A DNA stretch of 64,000 bases, from assembly GCF_014651635.1 (NCBI RefSeq), contig NZ_BMXG01000004.1, positions 1 to 64,000 of the forward strand, in the 5' to 3' direction. The stretch is from Cerasicoccus arenae. GTDB taxonomy: Bacteria; Verrucomicrobiota; Verrucomicrobiia; Opitutales; Cerasicoccaceae. This document shows, piece by piece, positions 47,194 through 54,054 of the stretch. A model generated the notes under the pieces. That model saw nothing but the letters and a program-made list of their open reading frames with translations. It had not been told where the DNA came from and made no database searches. Position numbers and translations under genes: made by a program. Position 1 is the stretch's first letter; the number at the start of each line of letters is the position of its first letter.

Positions 47194-48006
47194 TTAGCGT
47201 GGCTTGAAGTTTGGATCGTTTCTGTCTCGCGCCTGGTTGGACCAACGACGCATGTCCTTCAGTTCTTCACTGTTGAGTAGGGCGACACTGCCATCCAAGT
47301 GCGCCACTACGGCTTGGTTCGCATAGCGCAGGTGAATATTGCCCATGTTTTTGGGAGTATCCTCTTTATAGCTGCCGCTCCACTCATTGGGGCCATAAAC
47401 ATAGAATTTGCCCGCGTAAGGTGCCTCTGTTTCGGCTTGGGCAGGAGTGCTCAGGGCTGAAACGAATACGATTTGATCTGAAGGCTGAATGCATTGGGAC
47501 ATCATTGTGATGGCGTAGTGAGGGTTTTTCCCCACAGAGTGTCGGCCGTCCGTACTATAGTCTCCACCAACAAATGAACTATTGAGACCAAAGGAGGGAT
47601 ACATGGAAATCTTATACAAATCATTATCCCTGATTTCCGCCAAATGTTCTTGGGAACGGCCAGGAAAGAACAGATCAATACCGCCTGAGTAAGGAAGTAG
47701 GCGAAAAACGTAGCGATCGGAGATTGCGCCTTGATAGATCGGATTGCCTCTGTGGTCCATAACCGTCGTCATTTGCCGGTCATCATCGCTAGGCACGGAA
47801 GGCAGCAATTTGCCATTATGGTCTTGTGGATAGAGCAAATAGGCAGCAGCCAGTTGGCGTGCGGCGGCAATATCCGAACTTCGGTAAGCGGATTCCCTGA
47901 CGGTGCCAACAGCGGCTACGGTGATCGCACTGAGCACGCCAATGATGCTGACAGAAACGAGCACTTCGATAAGTGTGAAACCGAAATGTTTACTTGAAGA
48001 CTTCAT
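47194..48006 (-). CDS. prepilin-type N-terminal cleavage/methylation domain protein (pseudopilin)
   Basis: The 270-aa protein carries the prepilin peptidase site and hydrophobic helix GFTLIEVLVSVSIIGVLSAI. It belongs to the large verrucomicrobial and planctomycetal pseudopilin group with a globular C-terminal region and VVAHLDGSVALLNSEEL, the equivalent of the H-x9-DG motif. It is cleaved after Gly by a PilD-like peptidase and should be displayed by a type II-like secretion apparatus. Its start is four bases from the stop of the upstream secreted-protein gene, in one operon with hemS. A surface role in heme uptake is inferred from context only. Confidence 0.85.
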   Translation of the reverse strand: MKSSSKHFGFTLIEVLVSVSIIGVLSAITVAAVGTVRESAYRSSDIAAARQLAAAYLLYPQDHNGKLLPSVPSDDDRQMTTVMDHRGNPIYQGAISDRYVFRLLPYSGGIDLFFPGRSQEHLAEIRDNDLYKISMYPSFGLNSSFVGGDYSTDGRHSVGKNPHYAITMMSQCIQPSDQIVFVSALSTPAQAETEAPYAGKFYVYGPNEWSGSYKEDTPKNMGNIHLRYANQAVVAHLDGSVALLNSEELKDMRRWSNQARDRNDPNFKPR

Positions 48007-48010
48007 GTGA

Positions 48011-49312
48011 TTATTCCGTTAGACTGATATTAACTTTCATGAACGGGAGGGCATCGGGGTCTTCAAGCGGGATGAGGGAGCGCACGCGTACTTGCTGTGT
48101 GCCATCATCATTGAGCGAGAGTATTTCGGGATCGGCAGTGTAGGGGCCACCGGGGTCGGAATTGGTCAGCCAGTTGGCCAGATTGGCCGAAGCGGCTACT
48201 TCGTAGGTAAGATCATCTGCCCCCGCTTGCTGCGGGAAAATGACGGCTGGGTATTCAAATTCGCCGATGACTACGGTTTCGAGTTGGACGCGCTTTTCCG
48301 TGAGATTACCACTCTCAGGGTTGCTGCCTAGGCCATACTCCATCGCGTTGATGAGACCATCGATGTCATAATCAGTCTCGGCTGCCCAGTCTTGTGAGGT
48401 GATGCCGCCTCCATGATTGGAAGGGAATGCCATTTGTCGCCATACATTGTATTTCCGTGGAGCCAGCACCAAAAAGAGTTCGGTGTCATCGGTGATGGTA
48501 ATTTCCAATGGATTTTCTGTGGACTCGCCAAACGGCCCCTCCCACTTGACAAATCGATAGCCGGAATTGGGAACTGCAGTCACTGTTACGGTTTCGCCAT
48601 CGTTATAAATGAGCTTAGCTGGGGATTTCCGGATCAGACCGAAAAGAAGGCCAAAGGGAATGTTGGTGTCTACATTCAGGCCGTAGCCATCCAGTTGAAG
48701 CTCGAAATTTTCATTGGTGTCGAGCTGTGCGGCTGCGAATGACGTGTGCGGCAGTTCGTAAGAAAATTGGATGTAATAGTCTGCGATCAGCAGGCTGCTG
48801 GTGTCCCACTCCCAAGCCGTGTATTGATTACTCGTGGAGTCCGAGCTGGTGACTGCCGCCGCCATTGGGTCCGTATATTCAATCCAATCGCCAGCTTCGG
48901 TCGTGCGATAATAGAGCTTTACGCTGGAGAAGTCAGGCGAGGGGGACTGGCTGCCCTGATAGGTCATTGTCTGGAAAAGGATGTCCCCTGGGCTATACGA
49001 CGGGTTGTCATACACTTTGAAGGCCATAGGGTCCTCACCGAAACTATATAAGCGGTCGGTCGTTGTGATAATGGCTGTCGATGTTCCATATTGCCCCAGA
49101 CGGGCGTTCTCGTTACCACCGAAGTAAGGATAATTGACCTCTTCGTCAGACAATCCGTCGTAAGGTGGTTCTTCGGGCGTATAGGCGGCGTCGAAGCCGA
49201 GCCATTCGGCAAAATCTTCGTCGCTGTCGCTTCCCCGATATGTGGGGGTGATGAACTGTGCCATGAGACTGCTGGACAGGCAAAGGGCGGTGATTGGCAA
49301 AAGGTGTTTCAT
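48011..49312 (-). CDS. exported protein with a PEP-CTERM-neighbour-like domain and InlB-type repeat
   Basis: The 433-aa protein has a signal peptide (MKHLLPITALCLSSSLMA). Residues about 60-210 form a beta-rich domain with FKVYDNP (Tyr101), ILFQTMT (Phe113), YTAWEWD (164-170), DYYIQF and PHTSFAAAQLD (His189). The same elements occur, in order and spacing, in the adjacent PEP-CTERM protein. At about 235-285 there is a divergent InlB B-type repeat (DGETVTVTAVPNSGYRFVKW), then a calcium-loop-like DYDIDGLINAMEYGLGSNPE with a C-terminal beta domain. It has no PEP-CTERM anchor. It lies between the PEP-CTERM and pseudopilin genes, so a surface or secreted heme-related role is suggested by context. 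Confidence 0.8.
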   Translation of the reverse strand: MKHLLPITALCLSSSLMAQFITPTYRGSDSDEDFAEWLGFDAAYTPEEPPYDGLSDEEVNYPYFGGNENARLGQYGTSTAIITTTDRLYSFGEDPMAFKVYDNPSYSPGDILFQTMTYQGSQSPSPDFSSVKLYYRTTEAGDWIEYTDPMAAAVTSSDSTSNQYTAWEWDTSSLLIADYYIQFSYELPHTSFAAAQLDTNENFELQLDGYGLNVDTNIPFGLLFGLIRKSPAKLIYNDGETVTVTAVPNSGYRFVKWEGPFGESTENPLEITITDDTELFLVLAPRKYNVWRQMAFPSNHGGGITSQDWAAETDYDIDGLINAMEYGLGSNPESGNLTEKRVQLETVVIGEFEYPAVIFPQQAGADDLTYEVAASANLANWLTNSDPGGPYTADPEILSLNDDGTQQVRVRSLIPLEDPDALPFMKVNISLTE

Positions 49313-49334
49313 CGCGATATTTTATACAGAAGTA

Positions 49335-49364
49335 GCCCGCTGACAGTGACTGCTGCCAGCGGGC
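49335..49364 (-). terminator. hairpin after the PEP-CTERM gene
   Basis: GCCCGCTG with CAG (49335-49346) pairs with CTG and CAGCGGGC (49353-49364), giving an eight-pair plus three-pair stem with one mismatch. On the minus strand it lies just after the PEP-CTERM stop, followed by a weak T-rich tail. It may attenuate rather than end transcription into the secreted-protein gene. Confidence 0.6.
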
Positions 49365-49386
49365 CGGTTTTCTTGCTTGGCTTTAA

Positions 49387-50067
49387 CTAACGTCTTTGAC
49401 GACGCATCAAAAGAAGGGCACCACAGGCTGCACCAAGGATTAAGGCGTAGGTGGATGGCTCAGGAATGGCTTGACCAAAGGTGTCGCCCGCGTTGATTTG
49501 CATGGCGTAGTTGGCGTTATGCGGCGGTGTCGTCCACACAATTTCATAGTTTGAAATGGTGTCGAAAATGCCCGAAAGATCCCATTGGAAAGCGTAAACG
49601 GTGGTATCGAAATCACCCGTTACCGAGGCGGTGAAGTCTGCGGCTAGGTTTTGCGCACCACTATTGAAGCTGAGGACTGGGGCGACCATCATTTCAGAAC
49701 CTGCATCTGTTTGGAAGACAACGGTTTCCAAGCCAGCGATTGGCGAATTATCGTAGATAGTGTAGGTGCCTGGCGTATTGCCATTGTAGAGGGAGCCACC
49801 GAAGCTTAGAGGGAAGAATAAGCCGCCGCCGGAGACTTTGGTAAACTCTGCGCTGCCAGCATCCGCGGCTATTGGTGCCTCAAATGGGTCCGTTTCGATA
49901 GCAAAGCTACCAGCAAAAACTGGATAGGTTGGTTCCGTATAGACGTCGCCGTTCAGATTCGCCCAATTGGACTGCGTTGAATTGCCGGGCAAGGTGATGT
50001 CCAGCATCGCCATTGCGCTGCCTGCGCTGAGGGCGAAAATTAAGGTGGTGGTGAGTTGCTTGTTCAT
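49387..50067 (-). CDS. PEP-CTERM sorting domain protein
   Basis: About 226 aa from ATG 50067 (MNKQLTTTLIFALSAGSAMA is the signal peptide). The C-terminus is a textbook PEP-CTERM signal: IPEPSTYALILGAACGALLL with a final basic RRQRR, so the protein is processed by an exosortase and displayed at the surface. The mature domain (about 40-200) holds IYDNSP (Tyr105), VVFQTDAG (118-120), YAFQWDLSG (158-163), NYEIVW and PPHNANYAMQIN (His183). These match the neighbour at 48011 in order, with Tyr-to-His spacing of 25 residues in both. It lies directly downstream of hemS. Confidence 0.85.
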   Translation of the reverse strand: MNKQLTTTLIFALSAGSAMAMLDITLPGNSTQSNWANLNGDVYTEPTYPVFAGSFAIETDPFEAPIAADAGSAEFTKVSGGGLFFPLSFGGSLYNGNTPGTYTIYDNSPIAGLETVVFQTDAGSEMMVAPVLSFNSGAQNLAADFTASVTGDFDTTVYAFQWDLSGIFDTISNYEIVWTTPPHNANYAMQINAGDTFGQAIPEPSTYALILGAACGALLLMRRQRR

Positions 50068-50136
50068 TGGATTCTTATTTGGAATTATTCTAATTATCAA
50101 AAGTGGGATTCAGTCTCAATTTTTCTTTAAAATGAA

Positions 50137-50165: not shown

Positions 50166-51203
50166 TTACAGACTCTTGGAGAGCTGACGCCAGTCTTCAC
50201 GTTCAGGGATGCCAGGCTTGCGGGCACCAAAGAACTGGACAATGATGTCGCCATTGGCGTCATAGAGTTCGATTGCGTTTACGTCACCATCAGTGGTGGG
50301 CTTGACGACGTGCCAACTGCTGGCGATGCCTTGCTCGTTGAGGTGCAGATTGAAGTCAGGATCAAGCACGTTAAACCATTCGCCGAAAACGACGAGTTTG
50401 CTAACGGGACCAGTGTGGATCTGGATTGCTGAGTCGTTGCCAACAAAAACCATGATCGACATTTCCTGGTCACGGGCTTGCTCGAGTAGACGACGGGCAG
50501 CGTCATTTTCAATACGGCGGGTAAAGCGACCTTCACCAATTTCCATTGCTTGGTAGCGGCTGACCTTATTTCTGGCGAGCAAGGGAAAGAAATCGTGGGT
50601 GTCCTTCAAGTTGGCCCAGCCCTCAAGGAATTTCTCTTGACGCTCTGCATCTACTGAAGCCGGAGCTTCTTTTGCTGATTTGGGTTTGACGGTGAGGTCG
50701 GCACTTTGATCTTCGTGGCCGAAGCGGTTAACTAGATCCTGATAGACGTCTGCCTTGGCTTCTTCTTGAGGATAAACCTTATGGATCGCGTCGCCATGGT
50801 GGTCGAAAAATTGGATGGACTTTAGCTCTGTGTCACGGCTCGGCGCGGTTACGGCGAAGGCGTGGGTCCAATCTGAATAGAATAGGCGTAGGTCGATGTC
50901 TTTGCCCGTTACCAAGCCAATACGTCCACCGTGGTCGCTGATGTTCTCATAGCTGCCTTTACGTTCGTGCACGCAGTATTCGTTACGAGTCAGCACCATG
51001 ACGCGGCCAAGAGGCTTGAGCTCTTTCATGAATTCTGCCCAGTTTTCTACCTTCAGGCGAGTTGCCGTGCAGCCACATTGAGCAGCGACGAGTTCAGCCT
51101 CAGTTGCACCCAAGCGATTTGCGTAATCGCGTATGCGTAATTTTGGCTCGGCGGCTTTAAGCTCGGCGTATCGCTCGGAAAGGGATGCAGTAGTCGTGTT
51201 CAT
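50166..51203 (-). CDS. hemS: hemin-degrading factor (HemS/ChuS family)
   Basis: About 345 aa from ATG 51203 (MNTTTASLSERYAELKAAEP). HemS-family proteins bind heme in the cytoplasm and transfer or degrade it. The protein has the two tandem homologous halves: the first (about 10-165) with LGRVMVLTRNEYCVHERKGS; the second (about 195-340) with NKVSRYQAMEIGEGRFTRRI, GNDSAIQIHTGPVSKL and NVLDPDFNLHLNEQGIASSW. The His of IQIHTGPV lies in a strongly conserved family motif. It is divergent from hmuT and shares a 91-base promoter region with it, confirming a heme locus. Confidence 0.93.
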   Translation of the reverse strand: MNTTTASLSERYAELKAAEPKLRIRDYANRLGATEAELVAAQCGCTATRLKVENWAEFMKELKPLGRVMVLTRNEYCVHERKGSYENISDHGGRIGLVTGKDIDLRLFYSDWTHAFAVTAPSRDTELKSIQFFDHHGDAIHKVYPQEEAKADVYQDLVNRFGHEDQSADLTVKPKSAKEAPASVDAERQEKFLEGWANLKDTHDFFPLLARNKVSRYQAMEIGEGRFTRRIENDAARRLLEQARDQEMSIMVFVGNDSAIQIHTGPVSKLVVFGEWFNVLDPDFNLHLNEQGIASSWHVVKPTTDGDVNAIELYDANGDIIVQFFGARKPGIPEREDWRQLSKSL

Positions 51204-51287
51204 TGAAATGATTAGAAGGTTTATCTTGAGAACGAGTCCCATCAGCGAGAAAAGGCTTGCCCACGTCAACCAGAAAAACCAACTTTT

Positions 51288-51308
51288 TGAAATTATGTCT
51301 CAATTTCA
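51288..51308. promoter_or_regulatory. 7-bp inverted repeat over the hmuT start
   Basis: TGAAATT (51288-51294) and AATTTCA (51302-51308) are perfect inverted copies spaced by seven bases that include the hmuT ATG. It does not match the E. coli Fur box closely. It could be an operator or a chance palindrome in AT-rich sequence. Confidence 0.3.
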
Positions 51309-52167
51309 TCTAAAGGGGTTCCTGACGAGTTTAACCATGGTTGCAGGATTGGCGACCGTTTCGGCCCAGGCCGAAAGTCAGTCACGTATTGTAACCGTTG
51401 GCGGAGCAGCAACGGAGATTGTTTTTGCTTTGGGCGCTGGAGATCAGGTCGTTGCCGTGGATTTATCCAGTACGTATCCAGCCGAAGTTCATGAGCTGCC
51501 ATCGGTGGGCTACATTCGTAATATTTCTCCAGAGGGTGTTCTTTCAATGCGTCCCGATTTAGTCGTGACCACGGAGTCCTTAGGGCCCCCCGCCGCCAAG
51601 AAAATGCTCAAGCAAATGTCGGTGCCAATCATTTGGTGCCCAGAGCCCAACACTGTTGAGGCGTTGGAGACTGGTTTACGTGAAGTTGGTGCCAAGCTTG
51701 GTGAATCGGCGCGTGCTGAAACGATCATTAACGAGGTGAAGGCATCTATTGCGGAGACTCAGGCAACAAGCGAGAACTGGGCGAAGCGGCCCACTGTAGT
51801 CTTTTTCCTAGCCCCCCCCAGTGCGAGCGGGGCTGGCCGCGCTGGTGGCAAGGGCACGCGTTCGAGCGAGTTGATCCATCTCGCTGGTGGTAAAAATGCG
51901 GTCGATGATTTTGAAAACTTTCAGCCGATGTCGATCGAATCGCTGATTCAGGTCAACCCGGATGTGATTTTCGTCGGTGTGTCTGATAGCCACGGGGCGA
52001 GCCCACAGAGTGTGGAGGCAATGAAGAAACTGCCTGGCCTCGCTGGCGTTACGGCGGTGCGCACTGGCGCAGTCTATGGCGTGCCGATGGACGACTTGAG
52101 CTTCGGGCCACGGTTGGGTGAGGCAGTCAATCGCTGGCACGCCCATTTGGCCGAGTCAGCGAAATAG
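51295..52167 (+). CDS. hmuT: heme ABC transporter substrate-binding protein
   Basis: About 290 aa from ATG 51295, giving a signal peptide (MSQFHLKGFLTSLTMVAGLA). It is a helical-backbone metal-receptor-type binding protein of the FecB/BtuF/HmuT cluster: the first lobe has RIVTVGGAATEIVFALGAGD and VGYIRNISPEGVLSMRPDLV, and the second lobe ends with FGPRLGEAVNRWHAHL. The hemin class is supported by the SAAGRAGG-like glycine loop (ASGAGRAGGKGTRSSELIHL) and the adjacent permease, ATPase and hemS. It delivers heme in the periplasm to HmuUV. A run of eight C at 51812-51819 lies in the coding sequence. Confidence 0.92.
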   Translation: MSQFHLKGFLTSLTMVAGLATVSAQAESQSRIVTVGGAATEIVFALGAGDQVVAVDLSSTYPAEVHELPSVGYIRNISPEGVLSMRPDLVVTTESLGPPAAKKMLKQMSVPIIWCPEPNTVEALETGLREVGAKLGESARAETIINEVKASIAETQATSENWAKRPTVVFFLAPPSASGAGRAGGKGTRSSELIHLAGGKNAVDDFENFQPMSIESLIQVNPDVIFVGVSDSHGASPQSVEAMKKLPGLAGVTAVRTGAVYGVPMDDLSFGPRLGEAVNRWHAHLAESAK

Positions 52168-52207: not shown

Positions 52208-53260
52208 ATGCCTCTGCGCATCCCGGAAAAGCGTCGGATTTGGATCCACGTCGCCTTGCTCTTTATTTTACTAATGCTGGCGTGGGCTGCGCTGGGCATT
52301 GGCCCTACGAAGATCAGTTGGGGCGAGATCGGACAAGTCTTGCTTGATCGCATGACTTTTTCGTCCGAAAAAATAGCGGTCGATCCAATCATCTGGCAAC
52401 TACGTCTGCCGCGCATTGTGATGGCAATACTGGTGGGCGCTGGTCTGGCGGTGGCGGGTGCACTCATGCAGGGGTTGTTTCGTAATCCGCTTGCTGATCC
52501 AGGGTTGATTGGCGTCTCCAGCGGCTCAGCGATGGGGGCCGTCGTGGGGATAATCATTTTGCCTTCCATGGGGCTGACTGGCGGTTGGCTGACTTTCGCC
52601 GCGACTCCGATCTGCGCGATGGCTGGTGGCGTGGGGATTACCTTTCTGATTTATCAACTTTCGCGCGTCGGCGGGCGTATTCATGTGGCCTCGATGCTGT
52701 TGACTGGGATTGCGGTTAATGCAATTGGAGGGGCTTTAATTGGGCTTGCGGTGACTAAAATCGCCACGGCGGAGCAATTGCAGAGCTTGACCTTTTGGAG
52801 CCTGGGAAGTCTCAATGGCATTTTGTGGCCGGTGGTCGGTATTACGGCTATTATTCTGGTCCCTGGCTTGATTGCGTCGATGTGGCTCGGACGCCCGCTT
52901 AATGCTTTTCTTTTCGGCGAATTAGAGGCCTATCATCTGGGTGTCGACGTGCCATTCATCAAGCGTCTTGTGATCGTGATAAGTGCTTTGATGGTGGGCA
53001 TTACGGTGGCGTTCACGGGCGGCATTGGTTTCATTGGTTTAGTGGCACCGCACATTATCCGACTGAGCTTTGGCCCAGACCATCGTCTGCTTCTACCGGC
53101 CTGCGCTATGAGCGGTGCGATTCTTCTCTTGATTGCCGACACTGCAGCGCGGACGATCGCCGCTCCGGCGGAGTTACAAATCGGTATTCTTACGGCAATT
53201 ATCGGTGGCCCATTCTTCCTTATGCTTCTGCTGAAAAATCGAAAGGAACTGAGCATTTAG
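52208..53260 (+). CDS. hmuU: heme ABC transporter permease (FecCD family)
   Basis: About 350 aa from ATG 52208 (MPLRIPEKRRIWIHVALLFI). It has the FecCD/BtuC pattern of some nine or ten spans, the family signature WQLRLPRIVMAILVGAGLAV near the N-terminus, GALMQGLFRNPLADPGLIGV, a mid-protein FWSLGSLNGILWPVVG, and the cytoplasmic coupling region HLGVDVPFIKRLVIVISALM, ending with GPFFLMLLLKNRKEL. Two copies form the channel with HmuV below. The gap to hmuT is about 40 bases and to hmuV only two, so hmuTUV form one operon. Confidence 0.95.
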   Translation: MPLRIPEKRRIWIHVALLFILLMLAWAALGIGPTKISWGEIGQVLLDRMTFSSEKIAVDPIIWQLRLPRIVMAILVGAGLAVAGALMQGLFRNPLADPGLIGVSSGSAMGAVVGIIILPSMGLTGGWLTFAATPICAMAGGVGITFLIYQLSRVGGRIHVASMLLTGIAVNAIGGALIGLAVTKIATAEQLQSLTFWSLGSLNGILWPVVGITAIILVPGLIASMWLGRPLNAFLFGELEAYHLGVDVPFIKRLVIVISALMVGITVAFTGGIGFIGLVAPHIIRLSFGPDHRLLLPACAMSGAILLLIADTAARTIAAPAELQIGILTAIIGGPFFLMLLLKNRKELSI

Positions 53261-53262
53261 CC

Positions 53263-54054
53263 ATGTTGTGCGCGGATAAAGTTTCATTCTCCTATGGCCG
53301 CCGAACGGTGGTCGACAACGTCTCACTGGCGGTCGAGCCGGGCAAGGTGATTGCGATCCTTGGGCCCAATGGCGCGGGGAAAACCTCGCTTTTTCGACTG
53401 TTGAGTGGGGGGGAGGAACCGGAGGAAGGCACGGTGACTTTGGATGGCAAGCCACTTAAGTCATTTGCTGCTGAGGCGTTGGCGCGCCGCCGCTCAGTGC
53501 TGCCACAGACATCCCAGTTGGGCTTTAATTTTACCGTCCGCGAAGTTGTGGAAATGGGACGCCTGCCGCATGCCCGTGTGGACAAATCCGTCGATGAGGA
53601 GGCCGTCGTCGAGCAGGCGATGGCCCAAGCGGATATTGGCAATTTTGCGGAGCGGCATTTTTTGAGCCTGTCGGGGGGGGAGCGTCAACGCGTCCATCTG
53701 GCGCGTTGCTTGGCACAGGTTTGGCCGGGGGACAGTACGCCTGCTGAAAGCCGCTATTTACTGCTTGATGAGCCTACGAACAACCTCGATATTTCACACC
53801 AGCACACGTGTTTGCGTGAGGCGCGCCTGTTAGCGACGAAGGGCGTGGGGGTAGCCTGTATCCTGCACGATTTCAATCTCGCGCTGGCTTACGCTGACAC
53901 CTGCGTGGTGCTATTCGACGGGATGGTGCGGGCGAGCGGAACGGTGGCCACAGCACTGACCGCCGAAGTTATCAGCGACGTGTTTGGCGTCGAAGCAACG
54001 ATGATTGAGCACGAAGGCCAGCGGGTGCTGGTGACGCTGGCCAGGCCGGACTAA
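53263..54054 (+). CDS. hmuV: heme ABC transporter ATP-binding protein
   Basis: The 263-aa ATPase has Walker A GPNGAGKT at 34-41, signature LSGGERQRVHLARCLAQV, Walker B LLLDEPTNNLDISHQHTC and the switch His in CILHDFNLALAYADTCVV. The HmuV-type REVVEMGRLPHAR block is present. It powers heme import through HmuU. The LSGGERQ codons include a run of eight G (53673-53680), so a one-base slip here would abolish the transporter. Its last four bases overlap the convergent moeB-like gene, with no terminator between them. Confidence 0.95.
   Translation: MLCADKVSFSYGRRTVVDNVSLAVEPGKVIAILGPNGAGKTSLFRLLSGGEEPEEGTVTLDGKPLKSFAAEALARRRSVLPQTSQLGFNFTVREVVEMGRLPHARVDKSVDEEAVVEQAMAQADIGNFAERHFLSLSGGERQRVHLARCLAQVWPGDSTPAESRYLLLDEPTNNLDISHQHTCLREARLLATKGVGVACILHDFNLALAYADTCVVLFDGMVRASGTVATALTAEVISDVFGVEATMIEHEGQRVLVTLARPD

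Follow-up and report, generated by a model that had tools for sequence, protein, structure and literature searches.

The first 64,000 nucleotides of contig NZ_BMXG01000004.1 of Cerasicoccus arenae, hereafter the window, hold two neighbouring genes for exported proteins beside genes for heme import, and the locus raises the question of whether these two proteins are related and what they do there. Protein A (433 amino acids (aa), 48011..49312, reverse strand) has a signal peptide read from the sequence, a jelly-roll domain, a divergent InlB B-repeat, and a C-terminal tail. Protein B (226 aa, 49387..50067, same strand, ATG at 50067) combines a signal peptide, likewise read from its sequence, with a domain of the same kind and a PEP-CTERM sorting signal. 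Both genes lie 3' of hemS, as a preliminary description of this DNA had placed them, and a third gene, C, encoding a prepilin-type protein, follows A. As shown by computation, A and B are paralogous members of a single jelly-roll family that lacks a previous description. Concerning their role, we lean, somewhat beyond an even chance, towards the capture of heme, or of a heme carrier, outside the cell and its handover to an import route.

The relationship between A and B is hardly visible when the two sequences are compared directly. BLASTP returned nothing meaningful (best E 1.8, in an unrelated register), and the Smith-Waterman score of 60 was reached by 12 of 3000 shuffles at gap costs 11/1, by 8 at 9/1, by 2 at 7/1, and by 297 at 15/2. 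The empty BLASTP search and the 297 shuffles under strict gap costs speak for a resemblance due to chance or to general beta-protein composition. However, comparison of an A profile (13 sequences) with a B profile (19 sequences) gave an hhalign probability of 97.6% and an E of 2.7e-12 over 122 columns, with the His of a Pro-His (PH) motif aligned, and the negative control, the A profile against a profile of the C prepilins, gave a probability of 0.3%. In addition, the B profile alone finds A orthologues, such as that of genome G002 at E 1.9e-10, and A and B are adjacent in all 10 genomes of family f1. The profile match, the recovery of A orthologues, and the control rule out chance, to which we give practically no weight. 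At E 0.001, the A of the window's own genome was not listed by the B profile.

The motifs by which the resemblance had been recognised are largely in place, VYDN or IYDN, FQT, WD, and PH following each other in the order described. The exception is Y-A-x-x-W-D, absent from A, which reads YTAWEWD where B reads YAFQWD. A Tyr does precede the His by 25 residues in both proteins but, because of this difference, the two tyrosines are not aligned, and from the Trp of WD to the His there are 20 residues in A but 21 in B. The Gln seven residues past the PH-His is present in both, as described; conservation across the family does not extend to the Pro.

The shared domain covers about residues 69-203 of A (48704..49108, reverse strand), as delimited by hhalign with the B family, and residues 20-197 of B (49477..50010, reverse strand). 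No match at E 0.01 was found in Pfam for any of the 19 members of the B family, NCBIfam gave one weak stray match in one of the 19, and scanning A and B against Pfam with E values as high as 1 returned PF18998 and PF07589 alone. The former is the divergent InlB B-repeat of A (48494..48607, reverse strand; 35.8 bits, cut-off 23.6), and the latter the sorting signal of B (49390..49470, reverse strand; 20.8 bits, cut-off 20.7), which TIGR02595 also recognises (24 bits, cut-off 16); none of the other NCBIfam PEP-CTERM families was reached by B at its own cut-off. No anchor was found in A, nor any PEP-CTERM match in Pfam and NCBIfam scans, in agreement with the description of only one copy as PEP-CTERM-bearing. 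Of 104 genomes, 13 have the N-terminal part of A and 16 have B, the own genome being included in both counts. Within that genome, the B-family profile lists just B at E 0.001; weaker matches of the single B sequence fall mainly on the PEP-CTERM tail, two of them extending back to residues 144 and 135, and those of the single A sequence are confined to its C-terminal half.

AlphaFold models, confident for B (predicted local distance difference test (pLDDT) 94.4, predicted template modelling score (pTM) 0.89) and fair for A (pLDDT 83.1, pTM 0.81, with five models spanning 83 to 53), were each compared separately with Protein Data Bank (PDB) chains and appear to be jelly rolls of the same kind. 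Together with the profile match and the lack of a Pfam match, this bears out the proposal of a shared, undescribed beta domain. Among the chains aligned, both models have the same best match, a phage baseplate protein represented by 9euf_0 and sister entries (for 9euf_0: A, Z 8.2, root-mean-square deviation 3.2, 136 aligned; B, Z 9.2, 3.2, and 137). Further matches include the carbohydrate-binding modules (CBM) CBM4, CBM6, CBM22, CBM27, CBM61, and CBM86 at about Z 6-8.5, besides other jelly rolls at middling scores. The matches are those of general jelly rolls, with no telling fold relative among them, and solved-structure sequences gave a single, chance-level match (E 0.1). The CBM matches raise the alternative that A and B are CBM-like adhesins or matrix proteins binding a carbohydrate or surface polymer, with attachment or biofilm formation induced by iron scarcity explaining their place in iron-regulated loci. 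It would also suit the many copies not near heme genes, and both Haft et al. (2006) and PMC4960237 connect PEP-CTERM sorting with exopolysaccharide. However, Z values under 8 may reflect a common arrangement alone, a shared fold shows no function, no Pfam CBM match was obtained for A, B, or the 19 B domains, and the gene neighbourhoods described below point elsewhere; we consider this alternative improbable.

Seventy-three loci with the domain were examined, of which 68 were distinct after the duplicates L115, L116, L118, L121, and L129 were dropped. Neighbours were labelled with BLAST probes from the window and three loci, by which distant partners can be missed, and genome searches score the best candidates per genome, so that absence means absence of a good match. 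The gene hmuU lies within 8 kb of the domain in 24 of these loci and a heme-type TonB receptor occurs in 8 more; of the remainder, 16 have C alone and 20 have none of the three, one of which (L152) has a HemS gene. The heme-linked loci span seven families (f1, f11, f14, f21, f22, f29, and f49), and the neighbourhood check proposed at the outset revealed strong, repeated linkage to hmu and other heme genes; neither this check nor the separate fold comparisons refuted the initial proposal. For instance, nine of the 10 f1 genomes (G000-G006, G008, and G009) combine hmuVUT, hemS, B, A, and C, B being inverted in G005, G008, and G009, and the tenth (G007) has B-A-C without hmu, with B inverted and hemS on another contig. 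The order is B-A'-TonB receptor-hmuTUV-HugZ-DUF2470 in f11 (L060, L063, and L108), hmuTUV-HugZ-B-ExbB-ExbD-TonB-A'-receptor in f21 (L061, from a Puniceicoccaceae metagenome-assembled genome (MAG), and L062), and B-A'-receptor-HemS-hmuTUV in f49 (L153 and L155-L157). The domain and C occur with hmuTUV and HugZ in f14 (L106, L107, and L110) and in an Opitutaceae MAG (L124, whose contig ends after hmuU), A and C occur with hemS-hmuTUV in f22 (L057 and L059), and domain genes have receptor neighbours in f29 (L150, L151, L158, L162, and L164-L167). It is this presence inside receptor-hmuTUV-heme-degradation operons, in differing gene orders, that argues against carbohydrate binding.

Across the 372 genomes of the order, HemS is found in 22 and the domain in 22, both occurring together in 13, one of which (G310) has a HemS match below the cut-off; all 10 f1 genomes have HemS, each with the domain. 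The family extends to Planctomycetes and an Armatimonadetes MAG (L122, L123, L126-L128, and L130), at which the probes detected no heme genes. One of these loci, from Blastopirellula marina (L126, 8732-17345), has three domain copies within 9 kb. A third clade, of domain proteins of about 300 aa (L095-L103), has a divergent C gene adjoining in seven of nine loci and many Fur-box-like sites, and no heme genes were found there by the probes. In L057 (10534-11238) and L059 (8418-9095), a different small PEP-CTERM-like protein occupies the place of B between hemS and A, the L059 copy scoring 17.5 bits with PF07589, below the cut-off of 20.7.

In heme receptors, one His lies between the FRAP and NPNL boxes. 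According to Bracken et al. (1999), as cited in PMC6449446, these receptors are marked by conserved histidines together with FRAP and NPNL motifs. The receptors linked to the domain resemble this signature, an RNP..H..NPxL box being present in 16 of 17, with L166 as the exception. Among 31 other receptor loci, drawn from 100 matches and from PF00593 loci, the box occurs in L222 alone, itself a linked locus. The window's genome, which is 97.6% complete, has no linked-receptor homologue at E 1e-10, and its three PF00593 receptor loci are all without the heme box; no receptor with a His between FRAP-like and NPNL boxes was found in it. Homologues were absent at E 1e-10 from 13 genomes of f1 and f22 and from G057, G310, and G294, and G287 has a linked-receptor fragment alone (E 2.5e-11).

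Where receptors are linked, domain genes adjoin them, often two in tandem (L060-L063, L108, L153, L155-L157, L158, and L162). The same arrangement of a gene beside its receptor is seen for SusD with SusC and for HpuA with HpuB, and it would suit A and B acting, with no heme binding of their own, either as lids or docking partners of a TonB receptor or by carrying hemoproteins of foreign origin. However, linkage to hmuTUV is equally close for copies of the C type, which have no heme-type receptor (C is present at 15 of the 24 hmu-linked loci versus 9 with a heme-type receptor), and we regard this explanation as quite improbable. In L108 (11392-13603, genome G242), the linked receptor is split over two overlapping frames, by a frameshift or an assembly error.

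The gene of C (47194..48006, reverse strand) lies four bases 3' of A and, like the Fur-box-like site discussed below, had been missed in the preliminary description. Its product carries the N-terminal cleavage/methylation motif of type IV prepilin-like proteins (PF07963, 29.8 bits, cut-off 21.2; TIGR02532, 29 bits, cut-off 16.3), followed by an uncharacterised globular part. The globular part has 0 to 2 matches per genome in nine genomes, 10 in total, each at most 1.3 kb from a domain gene. A profile of the C family gave 25 matches in 18 of the 372 genomes; a domain gene lies no further than 1.7 kb away for all 25 and no further than 1 kb away for 24. The family is narrow, with a ELRDMRRWSNQA-like end, and two of 20 members touch TIGR04294 weakly (best E 0.0013). 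C is present at 31 of the 68 loci and a heme-type receptor at 17, both occurring together at none; the four domain genomes of 22 from which C is missing (G047, G056, G075, and G242) all have receptor-type loci, and G041 has both kinds at separate loci, the receptor on contig C120 and C on contig C93. By these computations, C is a dedicated prepilin-type partner in loci lacking a heme-type receptor. The exclusion is limited to receptors like the linked heme-box ones, since a broader receptor model finds box-less receptors 2.4-7.2 kb from the C-type loci L107, L117, and L149 and 3.2 kb from L119. It may also rest on very few events, as the C-or-receptor label needs two changes on the HmuU tree and strongly supported branches force just one; L109 (G294) was not counted as a switch within a genus because it groups with another family on the tree, lies on a 9.9-kb contig, and comes from a genome with 6% contamination. 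Three C genes (G006:C7:266280, G287:C61:75348, and G041:C93:16556) have one in-frame stop in the open frame.

The distribution of C allows two proposals on its role. In Cerasicoccus and its kin, the A-B-C set could replace the TonB receptor, a pseudopilus with C carrying or displaying A and B and pulling heme or hemoproteins across the outer membrane towards HmuT, and other domain-C pairs could do the same for other iron ligands; we consider this unlikely. A secretion role is more likely, and is a serious possibility that falls a little short of even: C would serve a type II secretion system as a minor pseudopilin specific to its exported substrates, A- or B-like proteins, and would have no part in the passage of heme across the outer membrane. 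Such a role is compatible with heme capture by A and B. The constant proximity of all 25 C matches to domain genes, including those at the 16 of 68 loci without heme genes, fits such a role, as does the B-A-C locus of G007, which adjoins three T2SSE genes and one T2SSF gene; in L053 and L060, too, genes of the T2SSE/T2SSF type are found no more than 8 kb from the domain. Receptor-type loci, however, also have exported domain proteins, yet C is at none of these 17.

Evidence on regulation comes from two 15-mers resembling Fur boxes. In an alignment of four Cerasicoccus genomes, TGAGAACGAGTCCCA between hemS and hmuT (51227..51241, forward strand) and TGAGACTGAATCCCA 36 bases 5' of the B start (50104..50118, reverse strand) recur with small changes between genomes. 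The two sites, found as pattern matches, are the sole exact matches in the window of their joint pattern, which was derived from these same two sites, and with up to three mismatches the count is at chance level (9 versus 8.06 expected). The palindrome TGAGANTNANTCTCA, searched with two mismatches allowed and with the Cerasicoccus loci of origin left out, precedes 31 of 83 first-or-only domain genes versus 17 of 532 control open reading frames (one-sided Fisher 3e-18, kinship ignored). Among these 83 domain genes, it is found before 11 of 26 in hmu loci, 13 of 22 with C only, and 6 of 24 with neither; it is also found before 6 of 28 C genes. The palindrome also precedes two Fur-family genes (L050 and L097) and, in L051, a flavodoxin gene followed by a second HemS-like gene. 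We infer that the shared 15-mer is a Fur box, to which Fur is predicted to bind. In L050, L097, and L099, domain genes distant from hmu share a stretch with Fur-family genes, and in L050 with a SufBD gene too; these neighbours suggest a wider iron regulon. The flavodoxin and second HemS-like genes of L051 (13332-14821), the latter with a Cys-rich start, lie about 4 kb from a B paralogue.

The PH-His is residue 189 in A (48746..48748, reverse strand) and 183 in B (49519..49521, reverse strand). Its column holds His in 82 of the 93 rows of the profile alignment, which are the copies detected by the B profile, 10 of the 103 domain genes falling outside. It ranks seventh among the columns counted, Trp16, Tyr70, Trp143, and Asp144 (profile positions) being more conserved; Tyr70 corresponds to Tyr94 of B. 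Outside the 93 rows, His is present in A of L046-L048 and in A' of L060 and L063, and absent from A of L049, L052, and L056. The A' proteins of receptor-type loci keep it, and among 13 A proteins it is kept in four, all from Cerasicoccus, most of the others reading SMS at that place. The predicted model of B sets His183 between the last two strands (155-161 and 166-175), a position that may fit a ligand but might be structural instead.

Common ancestry, the like fold of A and B, the repeated linkage to hmuTUV, HemS, HugZ, and heme-box receptors, the enriched site, the conservation of the His, and the presence of HemS in all 10 f1 genomes were counted for heme capture. Several observations weigh against it. 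The His does not track the heme link: 39 of 44 unlinked copies have it, and its conservation is the same in hmu-linked copies (29 of 35), with 13 of 13 in receptor-only and one of one in HemS-only copies. The suggestion that it is a heme ligand gains from its overall conservation and loses from its absence in A outside the window's genus (0 of 9), which rules it out as the heme ligand common to all copies. The palindrome precedes none of the 17 linked TonB receptors, 10 HugZ genes, or 14 second-in-tandem domain genes, just one of 11 receptor-only domain genes, and only 6 of 21 HmuT and 5 of 12 HemS genes. Nine HemS genomes of the 372 are without the domain, so the link is to particular heme loci and not to every HemS, and the 20 loci without hmuU, heme-type receptor, or C, together with the 16 that have C without hmuU or receptor, imply that some copies may have a ligand other than heme. 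We noticed no heme-binding protein in the fold matches shown, which excludes nothing.

If A and B do capture heme, the pathway might run as follows. Under iron scarcity, Fur would release the promoters; after export, B would be cleaved by an exosortase and stay attached to the surface, and A would be exported with no anchor. Heme would be bound by A, B, or both, with the hairpin His183 as a possible ligand in B. Where relatives have a receptor, the heme could then pass to this adjoining TonB-dependent protein, as from HmuY to HmuR; in Cerasicoccus, where the searches detected no receptor of this kind, secretion or presentation of A and B could fall to C together with a type IV pilus-like machine. 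Import by HmuTUV would follow, and HemS would receive or degrade the heme.

The window contains the genes for these last steps. The two-domain haemin-degrading protein HemS (50166..51203, reverse strand) matches PF05171 in two stretches with 272.9 bits. On the forward strand follow an HmuT-like periplasmic binding protein (51295..52167; PF01497, 123.4 bits), an HmuU-like FecCD permease (52208..53260; PF01032, 294.1 bits), and the heme ABC ATPase HmuV (53263..54054; NF010068, 299.4 bits, cut-off 261). An ATPase above its heme-specific cut-off together with a permease and a binding protein predicts an HmuTUV importer, although the permease and the binding protein reached no heme-specific NCBIfam cut-off. 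Between B and A lies a terminator-like hairpin (49334..49365, reverse strand), whose sequence is kept in four Cerasicoccus genomes and which could set the level of B above that of A; the number of terminator-like sites in the region (6 versus 5.1 expected) is not above chance.

The literature found says little about how heme passes the outer membrane in Planctomycetes-Verrucomicrobia-Chlamydiae (PVC) bacteria, Verrucomicrobiota among them. Searches on PEP-CTERM proteins, heme uptake, hemophores, and prepilins in Verrucomicrobia and Planctomycetes yielded no account of this family, and searches on Cerasicoccus with heme yielded nothing, most subscription journals being outside the scope of both. 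The analysis gives an unnamed domain a likely function and partners, offers some PEP-CTERM proteins a concrete, testable role, and exposes loci in which genes for heme import are accompanied by a dedicated pilin-like protein and no heme-type receptor is present. If the replacement of the receptor were true, A-B-C would be a receptor-free heme uptake system. In Planctomycetes, a link between macromolecule uptake and surface fibres has been suggested, according to PMC5394234, and a compact, well-delimited set of genes whose ligand is coloured would allow that idea to be tested.

Several known systems resemble parts of this locus. The predicted HmuTUV importer and two-domain HemS correspond to HmuTUV-HemS/HugZ import, from which the window differs at the outer-membrane step, where no heme-box receptor was found. 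B shares its signal with the PEP-CTERM/exosortase surface proteins, and A has no such match. C shares the N-terminal prepilin motif and weak TIGR04294 contacts with H-X9-DG type prepilins but differs from them in its narrow family, its characteristic end, and its constant position beside a domain gene across the 372 genomes. HasA with HasR and HpuA with HpuB pair an accessory heme or hemoprotein binder with a receptor, the role proposed here; the family differs in its lack of a Pfam match and its single, chance-level match to a solved structure. The fold of HmuY is all-beta, and Pfam holds HmuY, NEAT, and HasA models. The A/B domain is also all-beta and, in relatives having a heme TonB receptor, accompanies it as an extracellular protein, as HmuY accompanies HmuR in Porphyromonas (accessible parts of PMC8911585 and PMC6200708). 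This placement is seen at 17 of the 68 loci and not in the window, where the neighbours are hemS and C. A and B further differ from HmuY by a PEP-CTERM signal or free secretion, by the absence of a detected receptor in the window's genome, and by their hosts, which are Verrucomicrobiota and other PVC bacteria versus Bacteroidota. The HmuY model was matched neither by A or B (E up to 1) nor by the 19 B-family members (E 0.01), and the NEAT and HasA models were matched by none of A, B, and the 19 B domains. The family may be HmuY-like in role while lying, by model match, outside HmuY, NEAT, and HasA.

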